This document shows, piece after piece, positions 37,310-64,000 of a stretch of 64,000 bases of DNA (the first letter of the stretch is position 1; each line of letters starts with the position of its first letter). The notes below the pieces were generated by a model that did not search any database, had not been told where the DNA came from, and saw only the letters and a program-made list of their open reading frames with translations. The translations under genes and the position numbers were made by a program. This stretch comes from Lineus longissimus (taxonomy: Eukaryota; Nemertea; Pilidiophora; Heteronemertea; Lineidae): NCBI RefSeq assembly GCF_910592395.1, contig NC_088319.1:6632001-6696000 (forward strand), read 5' to 3'.

Positions 37310-37524
37310 CCAGATATTTTGGCAGTCATGTCAAATGTGGAAAAAAATTGTTATATGTTGTACAATGGCCAGTCTTATAAATGTGTTGGTTTACTGTAAC
37401 CTGACCGAACTTATTGAAAGATCCTCTCAGTCTTACCAAACGTTTTGTTGACTAAAAGATACATAAGAGTTTTATAGCTTTCAAAAACCTTGTAATTTCT
37501 TTAAGTTGGCTATTTTCTGCTTTA

Positions 37525-38268
37525 AGCCCGGTCTACACTAGCCAACATGCACCAACAAATGTTGGCCAACATTGGCCAACATCGTGTTGGGCCTTGTTGC
37601 AGAGGCATGTTTGCTATTGTTTGCCAGTGTGGACGGGTCCAAAAACAAGTGAAAACATCAGCCAACTTGTTGGCCAATGTTGGCCTATGTTAGGCCATGC
37701 TACTTCTGAACAACATGTTGGTTGGTGTTGGGCAATCAGCAGCCAATCAGGGAACAGATTTGGATCATGTGATGGAGCTACTGGGACAAAATGGCAGCCT
37801 CAATGAAAGATAGAGAATGGCAATTTCAAGAAATTGAACACTTAATTTCAGAATACGAAAAGCTTCATCCATCCGCAGGAAATTCTTGAGGCTTTTGAAG
37901 TCTGAGGCCATTAACTCTTGAAGGAGGCAGTGATAGGCCCCATCATGCTTTTTCCACAAGTATGGCTTTTGTCAGTTGCGGCGGCGACGGGGGTTAATCA
38001 CAACTGAAAGAATTGCTGCTGAAGCACCTAGGCATGCTTTCTTCCTGTGGTTCTCCATTGTTTTAAAGAAAAAATGAAGAGAAATGACTGATTTTCCCTC
38101 CAAATTGCCCTCAAATTCATGCCAAACACGGTCAAACTTAGTCAAACTTGTTTGGCAATGTTTGCCTGTGTTTGATAGTGTGGACGGGTCCCCAAACATT
38201 CGCCAACATGATGTTGGCTCATGTTGGCCAACAATTGTTGGCGAATGTTTGCTAGTGTAGACCAGGCT
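37525..38268 (-). mobile_element. Harbinger internal-deletion derivative, copy 1 (TTA duplication)
   Basis: Ends AGCCCGGTCTACACTAGCC and the complement of AGCCTGGTCTACACTAGC, flanked by TTA (37522-37524, 38269-38271). On the minus strand it keeps an N-terminal transposase piece: RKKACLGASAAILSVVINPR, then HDGAYHCLLQELMASDFKSL and NFLRMDEAFRILK, matching Harbinger N-termini (the HGAYH..L.QEL..D block). The DDE domain is missing. The subterminal regions are full of TTGGCCAACA-type motifs. A near-identical copy in opposite orientation lies at 53198-53932. Confidence 0.85.
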
Positions 38269-38400
38269 TTAGATACAAAATAAGGAGTTATCCCACCTGC
38301 GTACCGTATCCCATTCTTTCACTCTTTATGAAGTGTTTGATGAGAAAGAAGGAACGTGAAGATACTATTTAGCTCACAATATACGACAGCGTGGTTTATT

Positions 38401-49003: not shown

Positions 49004-51582
49004 TATTTGCTAACAAATTTTGTTCAAATCACTGCAAACACAATGTAGGATCAATGTGCTATTGAAAGCTCTGGGCACTAGTTGTTTGTGTTGGTCATGC
49101 TAAAATCAAAATTTATGTTAGGTGATGCTTCAATTTGTATATTGTAAATATACCTTTCGATAGTTACCATGTTTCTGTTATTTTTTCACAGCCAAAAATT
49201 TTTAATACCAGTATTTCAGCTGAATGAATGCTCAGTCAATATTTATAGTTTTTGATGCATGGTATTATGATTAGTAATGATTTCCAGTCTTTGTGCAGTA
49301 GTTAATGTGAATTTTACACTTTATTTTTGTCTTTACTTGAAATACCCAAGCCTAGTGTTGACTGTCTGGCCTTTCATTTGCAACAGAGTGAAAAACTGGT
49401 GAACTTGTGGGTCTTCAAGCCTGGGGAAAAATGACTTCCTCGTGAAATGATATCCCATCCCAAAAAGTGTCGAAGCTGGCCCTTAGTTTCTTTTGCCGAG
49501 CGTCGAAAATTGGTGCCGATCATCTGATCATGCAGGAGGGTAGAGTTCACCTTGACTGCTGTATCAGTTAATTGTTGCCAAGTGCTGGACATTGGAAAGC
49601 GTTTGCTAAACAATTTCTATAGCATAATACCTGTTTTTTTCAAGATTTATCCTAATCATAAGTTGTCTGAAATATTCTCAATCTAGCTTAATATTGATCT
49701 CTCTTTTCCAATTGAGTGGTCCATAGAACCCAATTACATTAGATATAATTTGATGTCAACTCTTCTGTGGATCCTGCAATTCTTACTGCATAGACTATGG
49801 TTTAGAAGATGCTAAAACAAGTATGAAAGTGAGAGTCTTTGTATCATCTCTAGCTTTGCTGAATTAAATGACGGTTTATACAATGTTTTATTCCTCTTCC
49901 TTTCCAATAAAAGAAGGAGTGCAGTGCTGGCATCACTGTAATGTATATTAATGTAGATCCCACGATGTCTGGAAAGGCCCTCTTCTGGGATACTGCCAAA
50001 AGTGGACACAGTAGAATGACTTATTACAGGGACTCTGCGAGTGATGACCAGCAGTCATTTCTAGTACTCCTTCCCAACAGAATTCTTTAGATTCTCACGT
50101 TGTGTGAATCTTTTTGTTAAACTCAAGTCAATGATGTGTAAAATCTTCAATTTTGTCATGTTTTAAGAATAAATATTACGTTGAACTTGAGAATGTATTC
50201 TTCTTTTGTCTCTGCCATAGAACAGTCAACTTAAAGCAAGCCTGAGGTCGTAAGTTTCCTGATCCCATGCATGGAATAAGCAAATCAGACATCAGTGATG
50301 GTTGCAGTTTTTGGAAGGAACGAGATAACTGGATCAGAAGTGCTGGCTTGTTGGTCGTCGGCATCATGCCAACTTACCAGCAGTGAATGTCAATCCTAAA
50401 GACTCCTCCTTTCACCGCGACCCAATAGGGCGGGAAATCTGTCAGACGCACACAAATAACGGGTGGCCTATGAAATTGCTCGACATAAAGTAATTGAATG
50501 ACGGCCTGCATTGATAGTGCCAACCTCCGGATCGGGTTACCCTTCTTCTATACAACATGCACTGTGCATTTGGGTCAGGTCAGCATCCCTGGAGCTGTTG
50601 CCTACTGAACACCTGGTCTTCAATTATGATGATGGCTTTCAGTGCGTGTCTCGTGCGAGAGACAATAATACCACCAATGAATATTCATAGGTTGGAGGTT
50701 CCAGACCTATCAATTAGACGAGTGCATGTTTTTAACTATCAAGTACATATTTGGAGAGGTATTGAAAACATATTTGCTGTGGCAAGTCTACAGATATGAA
50801 TAAATTGTTTGGTAAAAAATTAACTTTGAATTTTGACAACCTGGCCATAGGGGGCGTTATTCAAATTTGGAGCCGAAATAGGTAAAACTGTCCACTTGTG
50901 TCAAACTTGTCAATTAAAAAAAAAATTCCGTGGTCAGGGCAGAGACATGATTGTATTCATCCACAGGCGGAAGTGTGGCACTGGCACATAGTCCGTACTG
51001 AACTGTGAAACTGTGGTAAATACATGACTGTGTTGGGTGGATTTATTTTTCAATCTTTGGTGGATTCTTAATCTACGGAGCCAGGCCATAACAGGGATAT
51101 ACTTTTTGATAATTAATTCAAGGAAATATAGTGTCACTGGCCAGTTTGGAACTTGTATTCTAATAGGCCCATATCAGTCCGCGAGTGACGATTTGATGGC
51201 AATGCTGGACACAAATCAATTTTTCTCAGGCAATCGGTATTGGAATGTTTTGAATTTTTGCTATTACTCTGATAAAAGCCTCTCTATAACACATATAAAA
51301 TTTGGTGGGAATTAAGCGCCCCTGGTGTACTTTTTTCAGTTATGTATTCTCATGGAGGGCTTCACCGACCAATGCATGTGCTTGAATATAAGATTTCGGA
51401 CACGTTATTTTCATTCATACTCGCTTGAACAGCTTCGTCGCATTACAGACGTGGTTGCGTGGTTGGGGCGCCCATCACACGACGAGTTCACGCGCACGTT
51501 CAATTGCTGCACGCGTACCAGCATTTATACCTCCCGACAATTGGCCCTTGTGATAACCCAAGGGGGATGTCTTAGAGGGTCT

Positions 51583-51600
51583 CTTCTTTCTTTTAGTTTG
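51583..51600 (-). promoter_or_regulatory. snRNA 3'-box-like element
   Basis: Minus strand CAAACTAAAAGAAAGAAGAG lies immediately after the U1 3' end, as the 3' box of metazoan snRNA genes does (consensus roughly GTTT-AAAG-AGA). Confidence 0.5.
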
Positions 51601-51602
51601 TA

Positions 51603-51744
51603 AGGGGATAGCGCGTACGCAGTCCCCCACTACCATAAATGCTGCACCCGAGTCACCCACATTTGGGGTGATCGCAAGGGTCAGCCCAACCGAAGTGCAA
51701 TGGAAAGGCCTCGCCCTGGGAGAACGTCCTTATTGATCAACGTT
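51603..51744 (-). ncRNA. RNU1: U1 snRNA gene, 5' end separated by LINE insertion
   Basis: Read on the minus strand, from 51744: a piece of stem-loop I (AACGT, loop, ACGTT), then TCTCCCAGGGCGAGG. Stem-loop II has the U1A-binding loop ATTGCAC. Stem-loop III is ACCCCAAATGTGGGT with compensated pairs TCA/TGA. An Sm site (ATTTATGG) and stem-loop IV (TGGGGGACTGCG, CGCGCTATCCCC) follow. This corresponds to human U1 nt ~22-164. The 5' splice-site-pairing end (nt 1-21) is absent here. In stem-loop I the usually conserved loop GATCACGAAGG reads GATCAATAAGG, so the locus may already have been a variant or pseudogene. Confidence 0.88.
51728..51744 (-). repeat. LINE target duplication, copy at the U1 side
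   Basis: Minus strand AACGTTGATCAATAAGG. The same 17 bp recur at 57937-57953 between the two LINE copies. Its first bases pair with the following ACGTT of U1 stem-loop I, which supports a U1 origin rather than a LINE origin. Confidence 0.75.
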
Positions 51745-52153
51745 TTTTTATCTTTTATTGTAACAACATGTAAAAGTAACAATGATAATGAGCTAGCTAT
51801 CCCTTACAAAGCTCAGGGAGTGGTCTACATCTCTTAGCAATCTAGGCGGCGCAAATCGGCCTGCGGAGGTTTTACAGTTTGTTCTGCCTAACGAGCTGTA
51901 GTTGAAAAGAAACACTTGACATTATTTTTACAGGTGATGCAGTTCTGTGATGGCTTGCTTGCTGGCCATATTGTTGTGCTGGAAGAGGGGATGGTTAGGC
52001 ATTCATTGTACAAACAGTGGCTTAGAAATTCTTTTATTGTGCTGAATAGTTATTTCAGGAGTGATTTTGGTGGAGGAAGTCGTGGTAACACTTAAGTTAA
52101 ACGTGTTGTTGTTAATGAATGAATGTCGCCAGAGTTAATAGGCTTATATACAG

Positions 52154-55100
52154 TTAGATGAAGTTTCTTCTGAGTTCAAAGGTATCCGTGTTACACAGGA
52201 TGTTATTGCAACACCAGTCGGTTTGGAAGACTAGACTTTGTGTCGGAGAACTTCCGGCTTTGGTCAATTCTTGTTTTAATCTGCTGATTACGTTTGCTTT
52301 GAATATTTGTACTAAGTTTGCCTTGGGTTTATCTGGTTCAGTGAGAATAATATTTCGGTTTCTCCAGAGTATGTGTTTTGCAAGAAAGATGAGGAAATTT
52401 GAAAGTTGTAGGTTTGGTTTGTCTGCCGCGATGGTGTTTTGAAATGAGATTCCGAAACAGATTTTATGCAAGTCTAACCTGCAGGGTTTGCCTAGAATCT
52501 GTTCGATTAAAGGGTTTATGCGCCCCCATAGGTTGAAAGCAACTGGGCAGTCTGTGAATATGTGCAAATTAGTTTCTTCTATATTAGTTGCACATGTTTC
52601 GCATGTGTCGTTTTCTGTCATTCCCCACTTTTTAAGTTTATCCTTGGTCGCAAGCGTCAAGTGGGAGAACCTCCATTGTAATTCTCTAGTTTTGTTGGCA
52701 CTTAAGGGGTTTTGTGCATTAAGCCAATTAATTTTCCAGTTGATTTCATCATTTATGATTTCTTGAAATGTTTGGTACGACTTGGGTGTGAAATCTCGTG
52801 TTGTTTCACTGATCAAGTGGTTGTAAATATCTGTTGATTTGAGTTTGTTGATGGGTTTTTTGTTAAGATTAATACTAAAATTTTGCGCTCCCTTTGTTTC
52901 GCTTGCTGTTATGAGTTTGATTTTCCATTCTCTAGGGATTTTAGAGTACAGATTTTCAAGTTTTTCTTCTCCATTTGGGATGTGTTTTATCTTGTCATTT
53001 TCCTCAAACTCTATGCGTTCGCCATTACAGAATATGTCTTTGACTTGTACCACATTAGCCTTTATAAACTGTTTTTCCGTGAGGTTCAGCTGGGTCTTTA
53101 GTTCCGTGTTATTGAAGAGGTTTTGGTGTAGCAGGTCACGGGCATTCCTGTATTTTGGCAGCTTAAAGCTTCTGTGTATTTGTTCCCAGTAACCTAAAGC
53201 CTGGTCTACACTAGCAAACATTCGCCAACAATTGTTGGCCAACATTAGCCAACATCATGTTGGCGAATGTTTGGGGACCCGTCCACACTATCAAACACAG
53301 GCAAACATTGCCAAACAAGTTTGACTAAGTTTGGCCGTGTTTGGCATGAATTTGAGGGCAATTTGGAGGGAAAATCAGTCATTTCTCTTCATTTTTTCTT
53401 TAAAACAATGGAGAACCACAGGAAGAAAGCATGCCTAGGTGCTTCAGCAGCAATTCTTTCAGTTGTGATTAACCCCCGTCGCCGCCGCAACTGACAAAAG
53501 CCATACTTGTGGAAAAAGCATGCATGGGGCCTATCACTGCCTCCTTCAAGAGTTAATGGCCTCAGACTTCAAAAGCCTCAAGAATTTCCTGCGGATGGAT
53601 GAAGCTTTTCGTATTCTGAAATTAAGTGTTCAATTTCTTGAAATTGCCATTCTCTATCTTTCATTGAGGCTGCCATTTTGTCCCAGTAGCTCCATCACAT
53701 GATCCAAATCTGTTCCCTGATTGGCTGCTGATTCCCCAACACCAACCAACATGTTGTTCAGAAGTAGCATGGCCTAACATAGGCCAACATTGGCCAACAA
53801 GTTGGCTGATGTTTTCACTTGTTTTTGGACCCGTCCACACTGGCAAACAATAGCAAACATGCCTCTGCAACAAGGCCCAACACGATGTTGGCCAACATTT
53901 GTTGGTTCATGTTGGCTAGTGTAGACCGGGCTTAAGGTTTGATTGAGGAATTTGCTTCCTGTTGTTTTGGCTTTGAAGTTCTTTTCCAGTAGAATATTGT
54001 CTTTGTTGTGGGCCCCGTATTGTGTTTGGAGTCTTTGATCGATGAAGCATTTCCATGCATAATTGTGGTTGTCCAGGTATCTCAGGATATGTTTAACTCT
54101 TTGGGTTTTTATTTTGTTTGTTATGTTAGTGAGATTTATACCTCCTTCGTTGAGAGGTTTATATAGAATATCTTTTTTCACCCAGTGCTTCCGGTTTTTC
54201 CAAATGAAGTTTTCGAAAGATGTCTGGATTTTGTTAATTTATTTGTCCGGCATTGGGTAGACCGTTGATAGGTACCAGATCTGTGAGGTTAAAAAGGTGT
54301 TGATGACTGTTGTTTTCCCCGTTATAGAAAGGTCCCTTTGTTTCCAAAGGTTTAGGATTCGCTGAATTTTTAGAATTTTGGGGGCCCAATTGTCTTCATC
54401 GTAACTTGTATTTCCGAAGAACATGCCGTATATTTTTATCTTGTCATTCTTCCAAGTTAAATTCATTGGCTTGTTCATGTTATTTTTGAAGGAGCCTATC
54501 CAGAGGCCTTCCGTTTTTTGTTTGTTTACTTTGGAACCGCTGGCCTGTTCGTATGTTTCTAGTACATCAAAGACGTGGGGTAGTGATTCAATTGTTGAAA
54601 GTGTTAATGTGTTATCGTCTGCATACTGTTTTATTTTGCTTGTTTTTTGGTTTGGTAGTTTTATGCCTTTGATGTTTTTATTTTTTCGTATTGTTTCTGC
54701 CAGTGTTTCCGCCACTAGTATATACAGCAGGGCAGATAAGCAACACCCCTGTCTGACTCCTTGTTCTAGTTTAAAGGCGCCTGATAGCCAGCCGTTGTTT
54801 TTTATGTGTGATTTTATGTCCGTGTAAAATAGTGTAACCCAGTTGATGAAATCTTCTCGAAAGTTGAAGGTTTGAAGTGTCTTGTACAGATAGTCCCACG
54901 AGACTTTATCAAAGGCCTTCATTTGGTCAAGGCACAACAAAAAGCCAGGTTTATTAGTTTGATTAACGTATTCAATAAGGTCTCTCGTGAAATGCGCATT
55001 ATCGTGTATTTGTCGACCTTCTATGCCACATGTTTGGTCACTGTGTATGATATGAGGAAGGACTTTCTTTAATCGGTTTGCTAGACATTTTGTGATGATT

Positions 55101-56746
55101 TTATAATCAATACAGAGTAGTGAAATGGGTCGCCAGTTTTTTAACAGAGTTTTGTCTCCTTTTTTATGGAGGAGGGTTATGACTCCTGTTCGCATTGTAT
55201 TTGATAAGAGTTTATTTTCAAAGCAATAGTTTGCCACTTCTAAGAGGTCCGGCCCAAAGAGATCCCAAAATGTTCGGTAAAACTCAATTGGAAGCCCATC
55301 TACTCCCGGGGATTTCCCAAGTTGGAAGCTTTTTTGTGAGATTGTTAGTTCTTTCAGAGTAAGTTTTCCCTCACAGGATTTACTTTGTGGTTCAGTTAGT
55401 TTTTTGTCTATGTTTTTGAGAATCTTTGTTTGTGCTTTGGGAGATGTTGGTGTTCTTTTGTATAATTCGGTATAAAAGCGAATTTGTTCTTTCGAGATTT
55501 CCTCTTGTGAGGTCACTCTTTTCCCTTCCGGGGTAGTGAGTTCATCGATTACTTTCTTTTCAGCATTTAATGTTTCCAAATTAGCGAAAAACTTCGTACA
55601 TTTTTCCCCTTCCTCACGCCATTGTATTTTGCTTCTGATTTTGATTCCTTCAAGCTTTTTCTCTTCTATTGATTTAATTAATTCTTTTACCTGGGTGTAT
55701 CTGTTTATGTGATATTCTGATTGATTTTCTGCCAAAGGCGTTATTTGTTCAAGTTCTTTAAGGAGTTTTTCTTTAAGTCTGTTTTCGTTTTTCCGTTTTT
55801 CTTTTGAGTATTGTATTGAGTGGTATTTTATCTTATTTTTACCAATGTCCCACCATTTTGCAAGGTCATCATATTCATGCCTCTTGGATTGCCATGATGC
55901 CCAGAGAGTATTTACTTTTTCTCGATATAGCGAGCTTTTTAGTATTTCTGTATTTAGATGCCACATGTTTGGTCCTCTTGGCCTTGTGGCGGGTGTTTTT
56001 AGTTGTAAGCTGGCTAAGTTATGATCTGATAATGGATATGGTTCGATTTTAACGTTTTCACAAGAATGGATTAAATTTTCTGAAACATAGATTCTATCAA
56101 TACGTGAGCTAGTGTCAAAGTTTTTGGAGTGTCTTGAGAAGACTTTTAAATTTGGGAATTGATACCTTAAGATGTCAGTCAAGTTTAGATCAGATGTTAG
56201 TTTTTGAATCTCATTTTTACCAATTAGACATTTTTTATTCTGCGAGAGACCGAGTCTGTCTAGTTCAAAGTTTTCAATGCAATTGAAATCACCGCCTAAG
56301 ATGAATTCAGTGGGTAGGTTACCAGTATTCTCAGCGTTTGTAGGTTTTAGTGTGAAGTTTTTGATACTACTTAGGAAGCGTTGGCGTTCGGCCGGAATAT
56401 TTGGTGCGTAAATATTTATCACATTTATAAATTTGTCTACAAGTTTATAAAGTACACTAAGGATTCGGCCATTTTTGTCTCTTTTCATTTTCGTTACATG
56501 TAGATTTTCACTTGAGATAATGGCCACACCATGTTTTCGGTTGTCTTCTGGTATGTTTGATGTGAGAATTTGTTTATTTTTTAGGTGTTTTAGAAGGCCC
56601 ATAGCTTCTTCATGGGTTTTAAAATGGGTTTCCTGTAAAAGAGTTATGGTAAATTTATTGGTAATTTCAGAGAGGGTATTCCGTTTTGTGTCTGATGACA
56701 CTAGACCGTCTACATTTAACGACACAACGCTTAGATCGTACTCCAT
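52154..56746 (-). pseudogene. LINE ORF2 of copy 1 (EN-RT), one nonsense codon plus MITE insertion
   Basis: The frame opens MEYDLSVVSLNVDGLVSSDT. It has an intact apurinic-type endonuclease (LLQETHFK, FILGGDFNCIEN, SSRIDRIYVSENL, PLSDHNLASLQL) and RT (SPGVDGLPIEFYRTFWDLFG, LDQMKAFDKVSWDYLY, QGVRQGCCLSALLYIL, QYADDNTLTLS at about residue 708). It stops at codon 836 where copy 2 has TAC. The remaining coding sequence continues to 52154, split by the MITE, and contains the C-terminal zinc motif CETCATNIEETNLHIFTDC. Confidence 0.9.
53198..53932 (+). mobile_element. Harbinger internal-deletion derivative, copy 2 (TAA duplication)
   Basis: Opposite orientation to and nearly identical with 37525-38268. 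It is flanked by TAA (53195-53197 and 53933-53935). The undisturbed LINE copy 2 shows the empty site with a single TAA (about 59404-59408), so the boundaries are certain. The N-terminal transposase remnant reads on the + strand here (ENHRKKACLGASAAILSVV and HGAYHCLLQELMASDFKSLK). Confidence 0.92.
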
Positions 56747-56868
56747 TTTAAATGATAAAACAACCTACACCAAGTAATATCCTATGCTTATGAATACTGG
56801 TTTGGATCTCATTTGCCAATTCAGTCAGGATTTTTATGTCGATCACATTTTTATGTTGAAAGTCACGT

Positions 56869-57894
56869 TTATTCTGTTTTGTAGCCATTACCGTCCTCCT
56901 TTGAGATGGTGTCAGAGTTATTCTTTGTCCGTTTGTTTTTGCGTTTCGGCCTCTTTATCTCCCACGTTTCTGTAGCTTTTTGTAATCCTAGTGGGATATG
57001 GTTTGCTGGTAATTGAACAGTGCTTTTTAGTGTCTTTTTCGACGGTGTTGCTCTTGGCGTAGTTTGTGAATCAGCTGAGGCTTCGCTCTCGCTGTCGTGC
57101 CCCCTCTTGCTAGTTGCAGTCGATATTGTCGACATCTTGTCTTCTTCTTTCTCTTTCTCTGCTTTGTTTGTTGTTTCCACATCTTGCAGCGTCACCTCCA
57201 TTTGGGGATCGGCATCTGGTACTGGTGCGTTATCAGCTTTGTCGGCAGCGTTTCGTCCTTCTAGTACCAGTTGATTAACTTGCTCTCTGCGGTATGCTCG
57301 CTGCCTGCAGTCTTCTTCACGATGATTCGGATGAAGGCATTCCTCCCTGCACTCGAACCACATGTGATCATCTTGTTTGCATATGCCGCACATCTTCGGC
57401 TGATCTTTGTAAAAAGCTCTAAATGAGACCTGCTCACCGTTATTTTTTTCTGCCCAGCAGGTCCTTGGTATAGGGGTTTTCAGCTCAATTTCAATAATCC
57501 GTTTAGATACATTGTACAGTTTCGTTCCATTAATAAGGGTAAAGCGGCATGGCGACGTTATCTTTCCATATTTCGCCAGTACATTATCGACATTTTCGTG
57601 CGCAACTATTGGGGATATCCCCTCCAGCGTAATGAAAGTTGCCAATTTCTCTGGGTCCTTGGCTTGAAGTGAAACGTTTTTGTATTTAAACACTTTCTCC
57701 AGAATGTTCTCTTTCGACTCCTCAGATTTGCAGAAAATTTTAAAGGAAAAGCGTTGTTGCTCAATCCCAATAATATCCTCCGGAAAAGTGGCCTCGAGAT
57801 CACCCGCAAAGTCCTCCAGAGTTGCCTTTTGAATAGCGGCCCTTGAAACCACGACCGCATACCGTTTAATTACATTGCTAGCCATTGTATACAC
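56869..57894 (-). CDS. LINE ORF1 of copy 1, zinc-knuckle RNA-binding protein
   Basis: 341 intact codons from MYTMASNVIKRYAVVVSRAA. An RRM-like N-terminal half (about residues 10-150) is followed by a CCHC knuckle CGICKQDDHMWFEC (C-x2-C-x4-H-x4-C) and a second Cys/His segment ECLHPNHREEDC. A Glu/Lys- and Ser-rich tail with a basic end (RPKRKNKRTKNN) follows. ORF1 proteins of L1/Tx1-type LINEs coat the element RNA. It ends 122 bp before ORF2. The counterpart in copy 2 is cut at 62392. Confidence 0.85.
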   Translation of the reverse strand: MYTMASNVIKRYAVVVSRAAIQKATLEDFAGDLEATFPEDIIGIEQQRFSFKIFCKSEESKENILEKVFKYKNVSLQAKDPEKLATFITLEGISPIVAHENVDNVLAKYGKITSPCRFTLINGTKLYNVSKRIIEIELKTPIPRTCWAEKNNGEQVSFRAFYKDQPKMCGICKQDDHMWFECREECLHPNHREEDCRQRAYRREQVNQLVLEGRNAADKADNAPVPDADPQMEVTLQDVETTNKAEKEKEEDKMSTISTATSKRGHDSESEASADSQTTPRATPSKKTLKSTVQLPANHIPLGLQKATETWEIKRPKRKNKRTKNNSDTISKEDGNGYKTE

Positions 57895-57936
57895 TACACA
57901 TGCAAGGAGGAGCGGAACAAAAACACGTCCGCTCAG

Positions 57937-57953
57937 CCTTATTGATCAACGTT
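57937..57953 (-). repeat. LINE target duplication between the two copies
   Basis: Minus strand AACGTTGATCAATAAGG joins the A-rich 3' end of copy 2 directly to the 5' leader (CTGAGCGGACG) of copy 1. It is identical to 51728-51744. Confidence 0.8.
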
Positions 57954-60900
57954 TTTTTTTATCTTTTATTGTAACAACATGTAAAAGTAACAATGATAAT
58001 GAGCTAGCTATCCCTTACAAAGCTCAGGGAGTGGTCTACATCTCTTAGCAATCTAGGCGGCGCAAATCGGCCTGCGGAGGTTTTACAGTTTGTTCTGCCT
58101 AACGAGCTGTAGTTGAAAAGAAACACTTGACATCATTTTTACAGGTGATGCAGTTCTGTGATGGCTTGCTTGCTGGCCATATTGTTGTGCTGGAAGAGGG
58201 GATGGTTAGGCATTCATTGTACAAACAGTGGCTTAGAAGTTCTTTTATTGTGCTGAATAGTTATTTCAGGAGTGATTTTGGTGGAGGAAGTCGTGGTAAC
58301 ACTAAGTTAAACGTGTTGTTGTTAATGAATGAATGTCGCCAGAGTTAATAGGCTTACATACAGTTAGATGAAGTTTCTTCTGAGTTCAAAGGTATCCGTG
58401 TTACACAGGATGTTATTGCAACACCAGTCGGTTTGGAAGACTAGACTTTGTGTCGGAGAACTTCCGGCTTTGGTCAATTCTTGTTTTAATCTGCTGATTA
58501 CGTTTGCTTTGAATATTTGTACTAAGTTTGCCTTGGGTTTATCTGGTTCAGTGAGAATAATATTTCGGTTTCTCCATAGTATGTGTTTTGCAAGAAAGAT
58601 GAGGAAATTTGAAAGTTGTAGGTTTGGTTTGTCTGCCGCGATGGTGTTTTGAAATGAGATTCCGAAACAGATTTTATGCAAGCCTAACCTGCAGGGTTTG
58701 CCTAGAATCTGTTCGATTAAAGGGTTTATGCGCCCCCATAGGTTGAAAGCAACTGGGCAGTCTGTGAATATGTGCAAATTAGTTTCTTCTATATTAGTTG
58801 CACATGTTTCGCATGTGTCGTTTTCTGTCATTCCCCACTTTTTAAGTTTATCCTTGGTCGCAAGCGTCAAGTGGGAGAACCTCCATTGTAATTCTCTAGT
58901 TTTGTTGGCACTTAAGGGGTTTTGTGCATTAAGCCAATTAATTTTCCAGTTGATTTCATCATTTATGATTTCTTGAAATGTTTGGTACGACTTGGGTGTG
59001 AAATCTCGTGTTGTTTCACTGATCAAGTGGTTGTAAATATCTGTTGATTTGAGTTTGTTGATGGATTTTTTGTTTAGATTGATACTGAAATTTTGCGCTC
59101 CCTTTGTTTCGCTTGCTGTTATGAGTTTGATTTTCCATTCTCTAGGGATTTTAGAGTACAGATTTTCAAGTTTTTCTTCTCCATTTGGGATGTGTTTTAT
59201 CTTGTCATTTTCCTCAAACTCTATGCGTTCGCCATTACAGAATATGTCTTTGACTTGTACCACATTAGCCTTTATAAACTGTTTTTCCGTGAGGTTCAGC
59301 TGGGTCTTTAGTTCCGTGTTATTGAAGAGGTTTTGGTGTAGCAGGTCACGGGCATTCCTGTATTTTGGCAGCTTAAAGCTTCTGTGTATTTGTTCCCAGT
59401 AACCTAAGGTTTGATTGAGGAATTTGCTTCCTGTTGTTTTGGCCTTGAAGTTCTTTTCCAGTAGAATATTGTCTTTGTTGTGGGCCCCGTATTGTGTTTG
59501 GAGTCTTTGATCGATGAAGCATTTCCATGCATAATTGTGGTTGTCCAGGTATCTCAGGATATGTTTAACTCTTTGGGTTTTTATTTTGTTTGTTATGTTA
59601 GTGAGATTTATACCACCTTCGTTGAGAGGTTTATATAGAATATCTTTTTTCACCCAGTGCTTCCGGTTTTTCCAAATATAGTTTTCGAAGGATGTCTGGA
59701 TTTTGTTAATGTATTTGTCCGGCATTGGGTAGACCGTTGATAGGTACCAGATCTGTGAGGTTAAAAAGGTGTTGATGACTGTTGTTTTCCCCGTTATAGA
59801 AAGGTCCCTTTGTTTCCAAAGGTTTAGGATTCGCTGAATTTTTAGAATTTTGGGGGCCCAATTGTCTTCATCGTAACTTGTATTTCCGAAGAACATGCCG
59901 TATATTTTTATCTTGTCATTCTTCCAAGTTAAATTCATTGGCTTGTTCATGTTATTTTTGAAGGAGCCTATCCAGAGGCCTTCCGTTTTTTGTTTGTTTA
60001 CTTTGGAACCGCTGGCCTGTTCGTATGTTTCTAGTACATCAAAGACGTGGGGTAGTGATTCAATTGTTGAAAGTGTTAATGTGTTATCGTCTGCATACTG
60101 TTTTATTTTGCTTGTTTTTTGGTTTGGTAGTTTTATGCCTTTGATGTTTTTATTTTTTCGTATTGTTTCTGCCAGTGTTTCCGCCACTAGTATATACAGC
60201 AGGGCAGATAAGCAACACCCCTGTCTGACTCCTTGTTCTAGTTTAAAGGCGCCTGATAGCCAGCCGTTGTTTTTTATGTGTGATTTTATGTCCGTGTAAA
60301 ATAGTGTAACCCAGTTGATGAAATCTTCTCGAAAGTTGAAGGTTTGAAGTGTCTTGTACAGATAGTCCCACGAGACTTTATCAAAGGCCTTCATTTGGTC
60401 AAGGCACAACAAAAAGCCAGGTTTATTATTTTGATTAACGTGTTCAATAAGGTCTCTCGTGAAATGCGCATTATCGTGTATTTGTCGACCTTCTATGCCA
60501 CATGTTTGGTCACTGTGTATGATATGAGGAAGGACTTTCTTTAATCTGTTTGCTAGACATTTTGTGATGATTTTATAATCAATACAGAGTAGTGAAATGG
60601 GTCGCCAGTTTTTTAACAGAGTTTTGTCTCCTTTTTTATAGAGGAGGGTTATGACTCCTGTCCGCATTGTATTTGATAAGAGTTTATTTTCAAAGCAATA
60701 GTTTGCCACTTCTAAGAGGTCTGGCCCAAAGAGATCCCAAAATGTTCGGTAAAACTCAATTGGAAGCCCATCTACTCCCGGGGATTTCCCAAGTTGGAAG
60801 CTTTTTTGTGAGATTGTTAGTTCCTTCCGAGTAAGTTTTCCCTCACAGGATTTACTTTGTGGTTCAGTTAGTTTTTTGTCGATGTTTTTGAGAATCTTTG

Positions 60901-62392
60901 TTTGTGCTTTGGGAGATGTTGGTGTTCTTTTGTATAATTCGGTATAAAAGCGAATTTGTTCTTTCGAGATTTCCTCTTGTGAGGTCACTCTTTTCCCTTC
61001 CGGGGTAGTGAGTTCATCGATTACTTTCTTTTCAGCATTTAATGTTTCCAAATTAGCGAAAAACTTCGTACATTTTTCCCCTTCCTCACGCCATTGTATT
61101 TTGCTTCTGATTTTGATTCCTTCAAGCTTTTTCTCTTCTATTGATTTAATTAATTCTTTTACCTGGGTGTATCTGTTTATGTGATATTCTGATTGATTTT
61201 CTGCCAAAGGCGTTATTTGTTCAAGTTCTTTAAGGAGTTTTTCTTTAAGTCTGTTTTCGTTTTTCCGTTTTTCTTTTGAGTATTGTATTGAGAGGTATTT
61301 TATCTTATTTTTACCAATGTCCCACCATTTTGCAAGGTCATCATATTCATGCCTCTTGGATTGCCATGATGCCCAGAGAGTATTTACTTTTTCTCGATAT
61401 AGCGAGCTTTTTAGTATTTCTGTATTTAGATGCCACGTGTTTGGTCCTCTTGGCCTTGTGGCGGGTGTTTTTAGTTGTAAGCTGGCTAAGTTATGATCTG
61501 ATAATGGATATGGTTCGATTTTAACGTTTTCACAAGAATGGATTAAATTTTCTGAAACATAGATTCTATCAATACGTGAGCTAGTGTCAAAGTTTTTGGA
61601 GTGTCTTGAGAAGACTTTTAAATTTGGGAATTGATACCTTAAGATGTCAGTCAAGTTTAGATCAGATGTTAGTTTTTGAATCTCATTTTTACCAATTAGA
61701 CATTTTTTATTCTGCGAGAGACCGAGTCTGTCTAGTTCAAAGTTTTCAATGCAATTGAAATCACCGCCTAAGATGAATTCAGTGGGTAGGTTACCAGTAT
61801 TCTCTGCGTTTGTAGGTTTTAGTGTGAAGTTTTTGATACTACTTAGGAAGCGTTGGCGTTCGGCCGGAATATTTGGTGCGTAAATATTTATCACATTTAT
61901 AAATTTGTCTACAAGTTTATAAAGTACACTAAGGATTCGGCCATTTTTGTCTCTTTTCATTTTCGTTACATGTAGATTTTCACTTGAGATAATGGCCACA
62001 CCATGTTTTCGGTTGTCTTCTGGTATGTTTGATGTGAGAATTTGTTTATTTTTTAGGTGTTTTAGAAGGCCCATAGCTTCTTCATGGGTTTTAAAATGGG
62101 TTTCCTGTAAAAGAGTTATGGTAAATTTATTGGTAATTTCAGAGAGGGTATTCCGTTTTGTGTCTGATGACACTAGACCGTCTACATTTAACGACACAAC
62201 GCTTAGATCGTACTCCATTTTAAATGATAAAACAACCTACACCAAGTAATATCCTATGCTTATGAATACTGGTTTGGATCTCATTTGCCAATTCAGTCAG
62301 GATTTTTATGTCGATCACATTTTTATGTTGAAAGTCACGTTTATTCTGTTTTGTAGCCATTACCGTCCTCCTTTGAGATGGTGTCAGAGTTA
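57954..62392 (-). mobile_element. Tx1/L1-type LINE, copy 2 (5' part cut off at 62392)
   Basis: It is collinear with copy 1 from the 3' tail through ORF2 and the ORF1/ORF2 gap into the last codons of ORF1, where homology stops at ...GTGTCAGAGTTA (plus strand). Beyond lies GGGGAGACCGGGG of a different sequence. Whether this is an insertion or a 5' truncation cannot be decided in the window. Confidence 0.88.
58364..62218 (-). CDS. LINE ORF2 of copy 2, intact endonuclease-reverse transcriptase
   Basis: 1,284 codons with no break. Domain order is as in copy 1: APE-type endonuclease (about 1-240), a charged linker, RT (about 470-770, YADD at about 708), then a long C-terminal region ending with a zinc-finger-like CETCATNIEETNLHIFTDC and LWGRINPLIEQILG. 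The protein nicks target DNA and primes reverse transcription on it. All catalytic motifs I can see are present, so the protein could be active even though its ORF1 partner is cut. Confidence 0.93.
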   Translation of the reverse strand: MEYDLSVVSLNVDGLVSSDTKRNTLSEITNKFTITLLQETHFKTHEEAMGLLKHLKNKQILTSNIPEDNRKHGVAIISSENLHVTKMKRDKNGRILSVLYKLVDKFINVINIYAPNIPAERQRFLSSIKNFTLKPTNAENTGNLPTEFILGGDFNCIENFELDRLGLSQNKKCLIGKNEIQKLTSDLNLTDILRYQFPNLKVFSRHSKNFDTSSRIDRIYVSENLIHSCENVKIEPYPLSDHNLASLQLKTPATRPRGPNTWHLNTEILKSSLYREKVNTLWASWQSKRHEYDDLAKWWDIGKNKIKYLSIQYSKEKRKNENRLKEKLLKELEQITPLAENQSEYHINRYTQVKELIKSIEEKKLEGIKIRSKIQWREEGEKCTKFFANLETLNAEKKVIDELTTPEGKRVTSQEEISKEQIRFYTELYKRTPTSPKAQTKILKNIDKKLTEPQSKSCEGKLTRKELTISQKSFQLGKSPGVDGLPIEFYRTFWDLFGPDLLEVANYCFENKLLSNTMRTGVITLLYKKGDKTLLKNWRPISLLCIDYKIITKCLANRLKKVLPHIIHSDQTCGIEGRQIHDNAHFTRDLIEHVNQNNKPGFLLCLDQMKAFDKVSWDYLYKTLQTFNFREDFINWVTLFYTDIKSHIKNNGWLSGAFKLEQGVRQGCCLSALLYILVAETLAETIRKNKNIKGIKLPNQKTSKIKQYADDNTLTLSTIESLPHVFDVLETYEQASGSKVNKQKTEGLWIGSFKNNMNKPMNLTWKNDKIKIYGMFFGNTSYDEDNWAPKILKIQRILNLWKQRDLSITGKTTVINTFLTSQIWYLSTVYPMPDKYINKIQTSFENYIWKNRKHWVKKDILYKPLNEGGINLTNITNKIKTQRVKHILRYLDNHNYAWKCFIDQRLQTQYGAHNKDNILLEKNFKAKTTGSKFLNQTLGYWEQIHRSFKLPKYRNARDLLHQNLFNNTELKTQLNLTEKQFIKANVVQVKDIFCNGERIEFEENDKIKHIPNGEEKLENLYSKIPREWKIKLITASETKGAQNFSINLNKKSINKLKSTDIYNHLISETTRDFTPKSYQTFQEIINDEINWKINWLNAQNPLSANKTRELQWRFSHLTLATKDKLKKWGMTENDTCETCATNIEETNLHIFTDCPVAFNLWGRINPLIEQILGKPCRLGLHKICFGISFQNTIAADKPNLQLSNFLIFLAKHILWRNRNIILTEPDKPKANLVQIFKANVISRLKQELTKAGSSPTQSLVFQTDWCCNNILCNTDTFELRRNFI

Positions 62393-62660
62393 GGGGAGAC
62401 CGGGGCTAGTTCGCCCCTTTTTCGCTAAAACGGCTATATTTCTGTTGATACTGAAGCAAATAGCTTCCGGATGCTTCTGTAGCATAGCCCTGGGTCTTGG
62501 CTATAAACTATTCCAATGGTATTTGTCCGAGTTCATAGTATTTCTATGAGTAATTCGCTGCTGAAAAAAAAATGTCGATGTAGGCGAACCTGCCCCGCAC
62601 CGGGGTAAGTTCGCCTCCCCCTCGGGGCAAGTTCGCCGTCAATAAAACTGATTGGAACAA
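62393..62660. repeat. terminal/subterminal repeat region of the element cutting LINE copy 2
   Basis: It starts GGGGAGACCGGGGCTAGTTC. Variants of GGGGCAAGTTCGCC appear near 62409, 62604 and 62624, with an inverted one (GGCGAACCTGCCCC) near 62582. Clustered direct and inverted short motifs next to an abrupt junction look like transposase-binding sites at a transposon end. Confidence 0.55.
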
Positions 62661-62904
62661 TCTTGTCATTTCATTACTTTTAATAATTAATTAATACAAA
62701 TAACATTTTAAACATTTGTACTGTATGTAGGTTTGAAATAAACTGGAGAAAAACAATAACTAGTTAACAACAATGGGAAAATAACAAGGCAGGACAAGGT
62801 ATTCTTGCAAATTTGAACGGTTGAAATAAGCGAACATTGAGGACTCTTAACCATATACATGTAGGTCCACATAGTCCCCCTTTAACAGAATGGGCCTACT
62901 AATC

Positions 62905-64000
62905 TCACTTGGCGTAGATTGATTCATCTGTATCACAATTGTGGCAAATGTAACTGCTATTGGCAGCCAAATACACACACTCTTCATGCGACCAACATTT
63001 ACAGACCCCACATTCTACCCACGATTCCTTTGGTCGGCTCTCGGACCACTTCCCCATGCACACAAGGCATTCGCTGTCATCATCTGCATATTGTAGGCCT
63101 AAGCTTCTTTTGGCTTGTTTGGCACTAGCTTTCTTCTTTGGTTTCTTAGTCGTCTTAGGCCCCCTCCTGGAAGTCAGGCCTTGGTCTTTGGCTTTCTTCG
63201 TTTTTCGATTTCGTTTTTCCTCCCGCAGGGCCTCCTTTTCTGGAGTATCGGTTAGAATTGCCGTCCTTCTCCGTTTCCTGCCATTTGTAGTTGATGAAGA
63301 CCTTGGTGGCGCCTTCGGATGGGGTCGCAAAGCCTCTGGAGAAAATACCGGTGGCTCTCTTTGGGACCATTGGCTCTCTTCGGGAGGAGACATCGGTGCT
63401 GGAGCGGCGGGATGAGCTGGTCCTTCATCAGCATCAGGGCATGGCTGAGATCCTTGGCCCTCTTCGGGAGGAGACATCGGTGCTGGAGCGGCGGGATGAG
63501 CTGGTCCTTCATCAGCATCAGGGCATGGCTGAGATCCTTGGCCCTCTTCGGGAGGGGACATCGGTGCTGAAGCGGCGGGATGAGCTGGTCCTTCATCAGC
63601 ATCAGGGCATGGCTGAGATGAGGAGGGTCTATGCGATGGAATGACTGCACCATAATGTGAAGTAACCCCACCACCTGTTAGGTACATATTGATGTTGAAA
63701 CTAGACACAACGCCCGGACGCCCGGGCGTGAGCATAGTCTCCCGGTAACCGCTACCTGGCAATTTTTGATAGACGTAGGCTGTTAATCCCAGGGCATTAC
63801 ATATCACTGTCAGAATGATATCACCTGTATCATTATTGTACATCCTTCTATAGACGTAGTCCTTTACTTCTTTTACGATGTTGGTGCCTGCAGATGAGAA
63901 ATCGTTGTAATATGCTTGGTGAATAGATACCTCCCTGATAATTGCCTGCGAAATTGTGAGCCTGTGGTGTCTTTGGCCCCCCTCTGCTGCATTTAATGCA
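62905..64000 (-). CDS. OTU-protease-like plus PHD-finger protein, partial (runs off right edge)
   Basis: The frame is open from the window edge to the stop at 62905. The edge part reads ALNAAEGGQRHHRLTISQAI then HQAYYNDFSSAGTNIVKEV, resembling the OTU fold just after its catalytic Cys, which would lie beyond 64000. YMLTP-like and MYLTGGGVTSHYGAVI supply the probable catalytic His. Then come three 28-residue repeats (SQPCPDADEGPAHPAA type), a Lys/Arg-rich stretch and a C-terminal PHD-like zinc finger: CLVCMGKW, WVECGVCKCWSHEECV, YICHNC. OTU enzymes cleave ubiquitin chains and PHD fingers read histone tails. The position next to transposon-like ends suggests element cargo. The family is not identified. 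Confidence 0.7.
   Translation of the reverse strand, partial: ALNAAEGGQRHHRLTISQAIIREVSIHQAYYNDFSSAGTNIVKEVKDYVYRRMYNNDTGDIILTVICNALGLTAYVYQKLPGSGYRETMLTPGRPGVVSSFNINMYLTGGGVTSHYGAVIPSHRPSSSQPCPDADEGPAHPAASAPMSPPEEGQGSQPCPDADEGPAHPAAPAPMSPPEEGQGSQPCPDADEGPAHPAAPAPMSPPEESQWSQREPPVFSPEALRPHPKAPPRSSSTTNGRKRRRTAILTDTPEKEALREEKRNRKTKKAKDQGLTSRRGPKTTKKPKKKASAKQAKRSLGLQYADDDSECLVCMGKWSESRPKESWVECGVCKCWSHEECVYLAANSSYICHNCDTDESIYAK
63378..63630 (-). repeat. 84-bp coding tandem repeat, three units
   Basis: Three near-identical 84-bp units ('gagacatcggtgctggagcg' etc. on the + strand) encode the 28-residue Pro/Ala/Asp-rich repeat of the OTU-PHD protein. The length is a multiple of three, so the frame is kept; the opposite-strand frames across it are artefacts. 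Confidence 0.9.

Follow-up and report, generated by a model that had tools for sequence, protein, structure and literature searches.

The window analysed here is a stretch of 64,000 nucleotides (nt) of the nemertean Lineus longissimus at its full length (C12:6632001-6696000; contigs of the one assembly used, 391 Mb in 30 contigs, carry the prefix C), and it holds part of a U1 small nuclear RNA (snRNA) gene that has been split by long interspersed nuclear elements (LINEs). Two of the LINE families found in this gene, called A and D, are confined to U1: all copies with readable ends lie in a U1 sequence, at one site per family, in one orientation and with duplication of the target. A third family, B, is found in the same cluster.

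The U1 model of Rfam (RF00003) matches the minus strand of the window at 51602-51761 with 98.2 bits (E 1.9e-23), the gathering score being 69.5. The first-pass annotation of this DNA had placed a U1 gene beside the 3' end of a LINE, and covariance-model scoring confirms it; the U1A loop, the Sm site and the 3' box that it had named are visible by eye within the match. U1 proper begins with its nt 23-25 at window positions 51742-51744, right behind the A-tail of the LINE, and continues for about 141 nt to its 3' end at 51602. Compared with the U1 repeat unit, its whole 3' flank shows 5 mismatches and 11 gap positions. The 5' part of the gene lies outside the window, 32 kb off, at the array end (C12:6716065-6716085), and between the two pieces are found, in order, two D copies, the first of which holds a nested B2 copy, and two A copies, here called V and W.

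The array itself (C12:6716065-6750761) is made of 595-bp units with 22 intact U1 sequences. LINEs split six more U1 genes of the C12 cluster, the largest being that of the window, and the cost to the host lies in these broken genes (6 of the 28 counted in the C12 array). In the whole genome at least 39 sequences match the U1 model, 37 of them above the cut-off and 29 of the 39 on C12; these counts are lower bounds, as scoring covered 42 of the 6,821 first-look candidates. A second cluster (C11:18655906-18659915) comprises six U1 sequences on mixed strands, of which three are near-canonical genes and three are diverged variants; each matches the model from end to end and is thus without a LINE inside U1. 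On the same contig, at C11:11046594, a diverged U1 copy stands about 175 bp ahead of a 5S ribosomal RNA (rRNA) match on the same strand.

Family A and its target site in U1

Family A was searched for genome-wide with two probes, one from its 3' end (424 bp) and one from the middle of its second open reading frame (ORF2; 801 bp), for which 7/7 and 6/6 first-look candidates were scored. The former gave seven matches and the latter six, five of them strong and the sixth, on C9, with 72% identity over 109 bp. The long copies are five in number (W, V, a solo copy in the array, a copy on C16 and a copy at the array edge), and by both probes they all occupy the same nucleotide of U1, in sense orientation to it, which supports the earlier proposal that the LINE targets U1 within stem-loop I. 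When the 3' flanks were inspected, as that proposal had suggested, four of the seven were found to adjoin U1 at the same nucleotide (V via a 15-bp piece before W) and one to adjoin the U1 remnant CGTTGATCA. Copies in unrelated flanks had been named as the observation that would speak against targeting: there is none among the long copies, and two of the seven 3'-end matches, shorter and diverged, are without U1.

The 5' junction of A reads U1...AACGTTGATCAATAAGG/CTGAGCGG and the 3' junction A(n)(AA)CGTTGATCAATAAGG/ACGTTC, so that U1 nt 23/25-39 are duplicated, over 15-17 bp according to how the A-tail is read; such duplications are present in four of the five long copies. The solo array copy (C12:6744068-6738604; 5,465 bp) has an ORF1 of 355 codons, open from the 5' end, and an ORF2 of 1,290 codons, and 625 bp of its 3' flank equal the U1 unit with zero mismatches. 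The strongest single result is provided by the C16 copy, which is full length, with both ORFs open, and 99.6% identical to the array copy. Its host U1 unit departs from the array unit, with an identity of 93% on the 5' side and 97% on the 3' side, and a base variant private to this locus (CACTAAGG; GATCACTAAGG) is present in each duplication; the U1 letters at the ends of the LINE therefore stem from the target locus and not from the LINE. Pairwise divergence is 0.40-0.70% among four of the A copies, which vary in the length of their A-tails, and 2.2-2.3% for the edge copy. A 5.4-kb insertion divides the latter, whose 3' flank retains CGTTGATCA, after which U1 is lost, and whose 5' flank retains AAGG, as at the duplication ends of the other copies, next to the A-run of an apparent B-like LINE.

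In the window (Table 1), V and W follow each other head to tail within a single U1, separated by CGTTGATCAATAAGG; the 5' end of W (57936) adjoins this 15-bp U1 piece and then the 3' end of V, and not the 5' part of U1. Since V and W (0.61% divergence) are no closer to each other than the array copy is to W (0.53%; W and the C16 copy, 0.50%), two independent insertions into one site would fit better than a copied block. The LINE/U1 junction is where the first-pass annotation had put it; the LINE copy itself is not intact, its ORF2 being split in W by a 735-bp insertion. In ORF1 of W a zinc-knuckle-like CxxC..H..C motif can be seen by eye, and a Pfam scan of this frame gave no match. The insertion in W is 98% identical to window positions 37522-38272 in inverse orientation, and these two window copies of a 735-750-bp element have terminal inverted repeats with ends like GCCTGGTCTACACTAGC. 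Another element, of 3.6 kb, lies inside ORF1 of V (window 62393-64000 and on to C12:6698012) and has inverted ends (GGGGAGACCGGGGCTAGTT...) and an 861-aa open frame.

Table 1. Features of the split U1 gene and of the family A copies, in window coordinates
Feature	Position	Strand	Basis
Spacer downstream of U1 in the 595-bp repeat unit, with some divergence, at the array end	51341..51601	-	blastn to the 595-bp unit ends at C12:6683341
U1 snRNA gene, 3' part (nt 23-25 to end)	51602..51744	-	RF00003, 98.2 bits; comparison with intact array U1
Family A LINE, copy W	51745..57936	-	5' end CTGAGCGGACGTG, tail ATAAAAGATAAAA; two parts 99.4% / 99.7% identical to array copy C12:6744068-6738604
Open frame with the ORF2 3' part of copy W, past the insertion	52154..53254	-	ORF list
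735-bp insertion in ORF2 of copy W	53198..53932	.	self-blast, boundary comparison, ORF split
ORF2 5' part of copy W	54239..56764	-	841 aa open
ORF1 of copy W	56869..57936	-	open frame listed as 56869-57945, LINE-internal part given
15-bp U1 target duplication CGTTGATCAATAAGG between V and W	57937..57951	-	junction read; the 15 bp recur at 51728-51742
Family A LINE, copy V, 3' part	57952..64000	-	5' end outside window, at C12:6699030; interrupted from 62393
ORF2 of copy V	58364..62236	-	1290 aa open; Exo_endo_phos, RVT_1, zf-RVT

Families D and B

Family D starts with AGCGAGCGGACGTG and is flanked by a 19-bp duplication of U1 nt 3-21 (ACTTACCTGGCACAGGAGT). The 5' end of U1 pairs with 5' splice sites, and the D site includes this pairing region, while the A site (nt 23-39) lies in stem-loop I. 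With probes from the 3' end and from the middle of ORF2 (5/5 and 2/2 first-look candidates scored), four of the five 3'-end matches, all at one site, and both mid-ORF2 matches fall in the U1 cluster. The D copies share 99.7-99.9% identity across most overlaps, and one of them, D3, has a full ORF2 with two interruptions. The internal deletions seen in three of the four copies leave both ends in place, differ in their breakpoints and are not readable as GT-AG introns. A LINE piece at C4:10598855 is 34-38% identical to D in two pieces of ORF2 and has a D-like 3' tail.

Family B consists of two subfamilies, B1 and B2, with 80% identical ORF2. Both occur in U1, where the duplications (17-18 bp) span nt 33-50 for a 5'-truncated B2 copy and nt 36-52 for B1. 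B was considered as a third U1 family and rejected, as the genome search showed it to be mainly a U2 element: B2 is a U2 element with relaxed specificity, in contrast to A and D. At least 41 genome matches to the B2 3' end were obtained (40 of 49 candidates scored), 39 of those outside the U1 cluster and 27 at C7:15106353-15278894; the best 46 of 14,949 U2 candidates are all in an array on that contig (C7:15100380-15270685). The 3' flanks were read at 18 loci, which together with the two C12 copies makes 20 of 41 known. All eight C7 flanks enter U2 at GTATCTGTTCTTATCAG, that is from nt 37 of this genome's U2, which we take to be nt 36 in human numbering. Among the ten flanks beyond C7 and C12, two adjoin the start of a histone H4 gene (in one case only its first 18 nt, followed by other sequence), five a GATTC..TTTGGA site and three other sequence; one C12 copy lies in U1 and the other in D. 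B1 has two close matches, one in U1 and one on C5, not in U1.

Several of these loci have features of their own. The B2 copies at C6:6000523 and C6:6004813, 4.3 kb apart, adjoin the start codon of H4, which is another multicopy gene, and a histone 3' stem-loop at this locus scores 33.0 bits, just below the cut-off of 34. Four of the five GATTC..TTTGGA sites (C14, C17) are followed by a repeat with U2-like pieces (CTCGGCCTATTGGCTAAGA), which forms a further B2 site and for which an Rfam scan gave no match. On C5, one sequence (TTCTGCAAGGGGTGTCAAAACCGG) is adjoined by two different B-like LINEs that end near 18708472 and 18701778, at a distance of 6.7 kb, and may be a further specific site or a local duplication.

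Some B copies also carry U2 sequence at their 5' end. The B2 copy nested in D opens with U2 nt 7-51, approximately and in this genome's numbering (Rfam U2 52.1 bits; gathering 46), and in the one C7 copy whose 5' side was read U2 nt 1-51 stand directly ahead of the element, so that both break at the same U2 base. A weak resemblance to U2, over roughly its first 27 nt, is also seen in the head of B1 (21.7 bits, under the cut-off). On the simplest reading of these heads, the RNA of B would start at the U2 promoter and take the U2 5' end along; the alternative would be template switching, which is reportedly at work in the heads of SINEU, short non-coding short interspersed nuclear elements (SINEs) with snRNA-derived heads.

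Classification, mechanism and rival explanations

The domains Exo_endo_phos, RVT_1 and zf-RVT are all above cut-off in A (ORF2 of copy V) and in D, and the endonuclease and reverse transcriptase (RT) domains also in B1 and B2, where zf-RVT stays below it (22.6 and 27.3 vs 27.5 bits). An N-terminal endonuclease, an RT and a C-terminal zinc-binding domain are the ORF2 domains of the L1 group of LINEs with an apurinic-type (APE-type) endonuclease. The best match of A in PDB is human LINE-1 ORF2p (E 6.1e-73; best R2 protein, 1.6e-18; comparison made with A only), and the L1-type label of the first-pass annotation is upheld in the sense that A is closest to human L1 ORF2p among solved LINE structures. 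As in site-specific LINEs, 5/5 long A and 4/4 D copies lie in U1, and duplications of target sequence mark the insertions (A 15-17 bp, in four of the five; D 19 bp). Insertion into U2, as defined for the LINE Keno, does not apply to A and D, all copies of which with readable ends are in U1, and does apply to B, an APE-type LINE adjoining U2 at 8/8 C7 loci. We judge A and D to be new U1-specific APE-type LINEs.

The three families show ORF2 identities of 36% (A-D), 31% (A-B) and 29-30% (D-B). Each has closer relatives: P0001 for A (58%), P0075-P0077 for D (77, 69 and 60%, residues 300-900) and P0195-P0197 for B2 (53, 52 and 45%, residues 60-900). The same sequences group with A (support 1.0), D (0.998) and B (1.0), respectively, in an RT tree built with FastTree from 109 sequences, a sample picked partly by list position and without a Tx1, Keno or Mutsu reference. 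A and D fall in separate subgroups of one 44-tip clade (0.985), and B falls outside it. A common U1 lineage for A, B and D was considered, and its single origin is not supported by this topology; a single origin of a U1 lineage comprising A and D alone is conceivable on the same tree.

The insertion of A can be pictured as follows. The nick made by its endonuclease falls, most likely, in the U1 antisense strand at 5'-CCTTATTGATCAACGTT/AACTCC, a TT/AA site; the antisense-strand junction reads ACGTT/AACTCC, in the TT/AA context that is the consensus of the L1 endonuclease, and the junctions of D and B are less L1-like. Reverse transcription would be primed at the nick, where the A-tail would pair (target-primed reverse transcription, TPRT), and a cut of the other strand after U1 nt 39 would yield a LINE in sense orientation with the 15-17-bp duplication of U1 nt 23/25-39. 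This duplication would rebuild enough target for a second copy to stack, as in V and W, and D would insert by the same process at U1 nt 3-21. Both families would be transcribed from the U1 promoter, as suggested by the sense orientation of all readable copies, by leaders ahead of ORF1 (51 nt in A, 87 nt in D) that are short for an internal promoter, and by the U2 5' end of B copies found elsewhere. The nick strand, TPRT and promoter use are what we infer from the sequences.

That A is a U1-specific L1-group LINE inserting by nick, TPRT and target duplication, with D doing likewise at nt 3-21 and with putative use of the U1 promoter, is given a probability of about 0.9. Several observations weigh against it. 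The edge copy of A has only scraps of U1 at either end. A match at C16:766924 (302/424 bp, 93%) ends about 40 bp before the tail, which makes its target unreadable, and another at C14:10272372 (78%) breaks off no more than about 20 bp before the 3' end of A, with non-U1 sequence beyond it, and may represent an older or a related element with a different insertion site. The fifth D 3'-end match, 35 bp on C4, belongs to a distant LINE relative whose flank is not U1, and internal deletions affect three of the four D copies. The 5' hairpin of A (z -2.57 vs shuffles) is not common to D (z +1.06), and a shared hairpin as processing signal was dropped. Finally, all observations come from a single assembly, and stacked near-identical copies are where assemblies err.

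Three other explanations have to be considered. L1-type LINEs might land in the U1 array because its chromatin is open and offers nick sites, without recognizing the U1 sequence, and the presence in U1 of several unrelated families, including the mainly U2-borne B, would agree with such a bias; however, A and D each sit at one exact nucleotide and in one orientation in every readable copy. No intact A or D copy was found outside U1 in 391 Mb, where scattered copies would have shown up, as the scatter of B2 did in the same kind of search, and B exemplifies what a weaker specificity looks like. An open-chromatin bias is thus very improbable. A little less probable still is a single chance insertion into U1 that was multiplied by unequal crossing-over of the array. 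The near-identical U1 units indicate that the array is being homogenised, and the likeness of the D copies in most of their overlaps would suit this process, but it does not account for the different A-tail lengths among A copies, for V and W being no more alike than other A pairs, or for three families with 29-36% identical ORF2, each in U1 at different positions. It is largely refuted by the full-length C16 copy, whose host U1 is diverged and has left its private variant on both sides of the element. The same private base variant speaks against an assembly artefact that fused LINE and U1 repeats, as do the proper target duplications at each site and the faultless U1 unit 3' of the solo array copy; tandem arrays with nested near-identical LINEs are admittedly difficult to assemble, and this last explanation is the least probable of the three, close to negligible.

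With site-specific insertion of A and D retained, a broader reading is evenly balanced between being right and wrong: L1-group LINEs would have invaded U1 on two or more independent occasions and evolved exact recognition of two sites in its functional 5' end (nt 3-21 and 23-39), the elements would be expressed by read-through from the snRNA promoter, the arrays would serve as both home and promoter, and U2-homed elements would leak to U1 with a U2 5' tag.

Significance and comparison with known systems

Site-specific LINEs serve the study and the re-engineering of target-primed insertion, and U1 is an additional conserved target, which two divergent LINEs enter each at a site of its own. An snRNA array can support a community of LINEs, as the ribosomal DNA does (R1, R2). 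Transcripts from snRNA promoters normally terminate at the 3' box without a poly(A) tail, and the families described here offer a natural test of whether such transcripts can serve as LINE mRNA.

R2 is a site-specific LINE of 28S rRNA genes, which is expressed by co-transcription and has a restriction-like endonuclease; the U1 elements share with it a multicopy gene as home and differ in that R2 targets rRNA and in its endonuclease. B resembles SINEU in that a retroelement begins with the 5' sequence of an snRNA, but in B this U2 head belongs to a LINE and breaks off at the same U2 base as the flank of the U2-inserted copy.

For snRNA genes, the available text of a 2015 paper gives only Keno and Utopia (both in U2) and the Dada DNA transposons (U1, U6) (PMC4640811). 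No LINE targeting U1 was found in a search of the later open-access literature, Repbase entries being outside this search and unpublished or unlisted ones possible. Keno is described there as a U2-gene-specific LINE with an apurinic-type endonuclease, and Utopia as a U2-gene-specific LINE with a restriction-like endonuclease, inserted at U2 nt 39, with a 3' flank of Keno that is called identical (PMC4640811). As far as these descriptions go, A, B and D are like Keno in being LINEs with an apurinic-type endonuclease in a multicopy snRNA gene. B, with its 3' flank beginning at nt 37, would moreover occupy nearly the same U2 site, a likeness that concerns target and domain type and not sequence, whereas A and D differ from Keno in lying in U1, at two different sites. 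With Utopia, as far as it is described, they share residence in snRNA genes, the presence of several families together, tandem copies and low copy number, and they differ from it in endonuclease type and target gene. A parallel in the same gene is Dada-U1, a DNA transposon in zebrafish U1 genes (PMC3706591). In the part of that source available it resembles A and D in inserting at one site of the U1 gene in the same direction, and it is unlike them in being no retrotransposon: it encodes a DDE transposase and makes 6-7-bp duplications at CTGCGAA, 3' of the two sites used by the LINEs.

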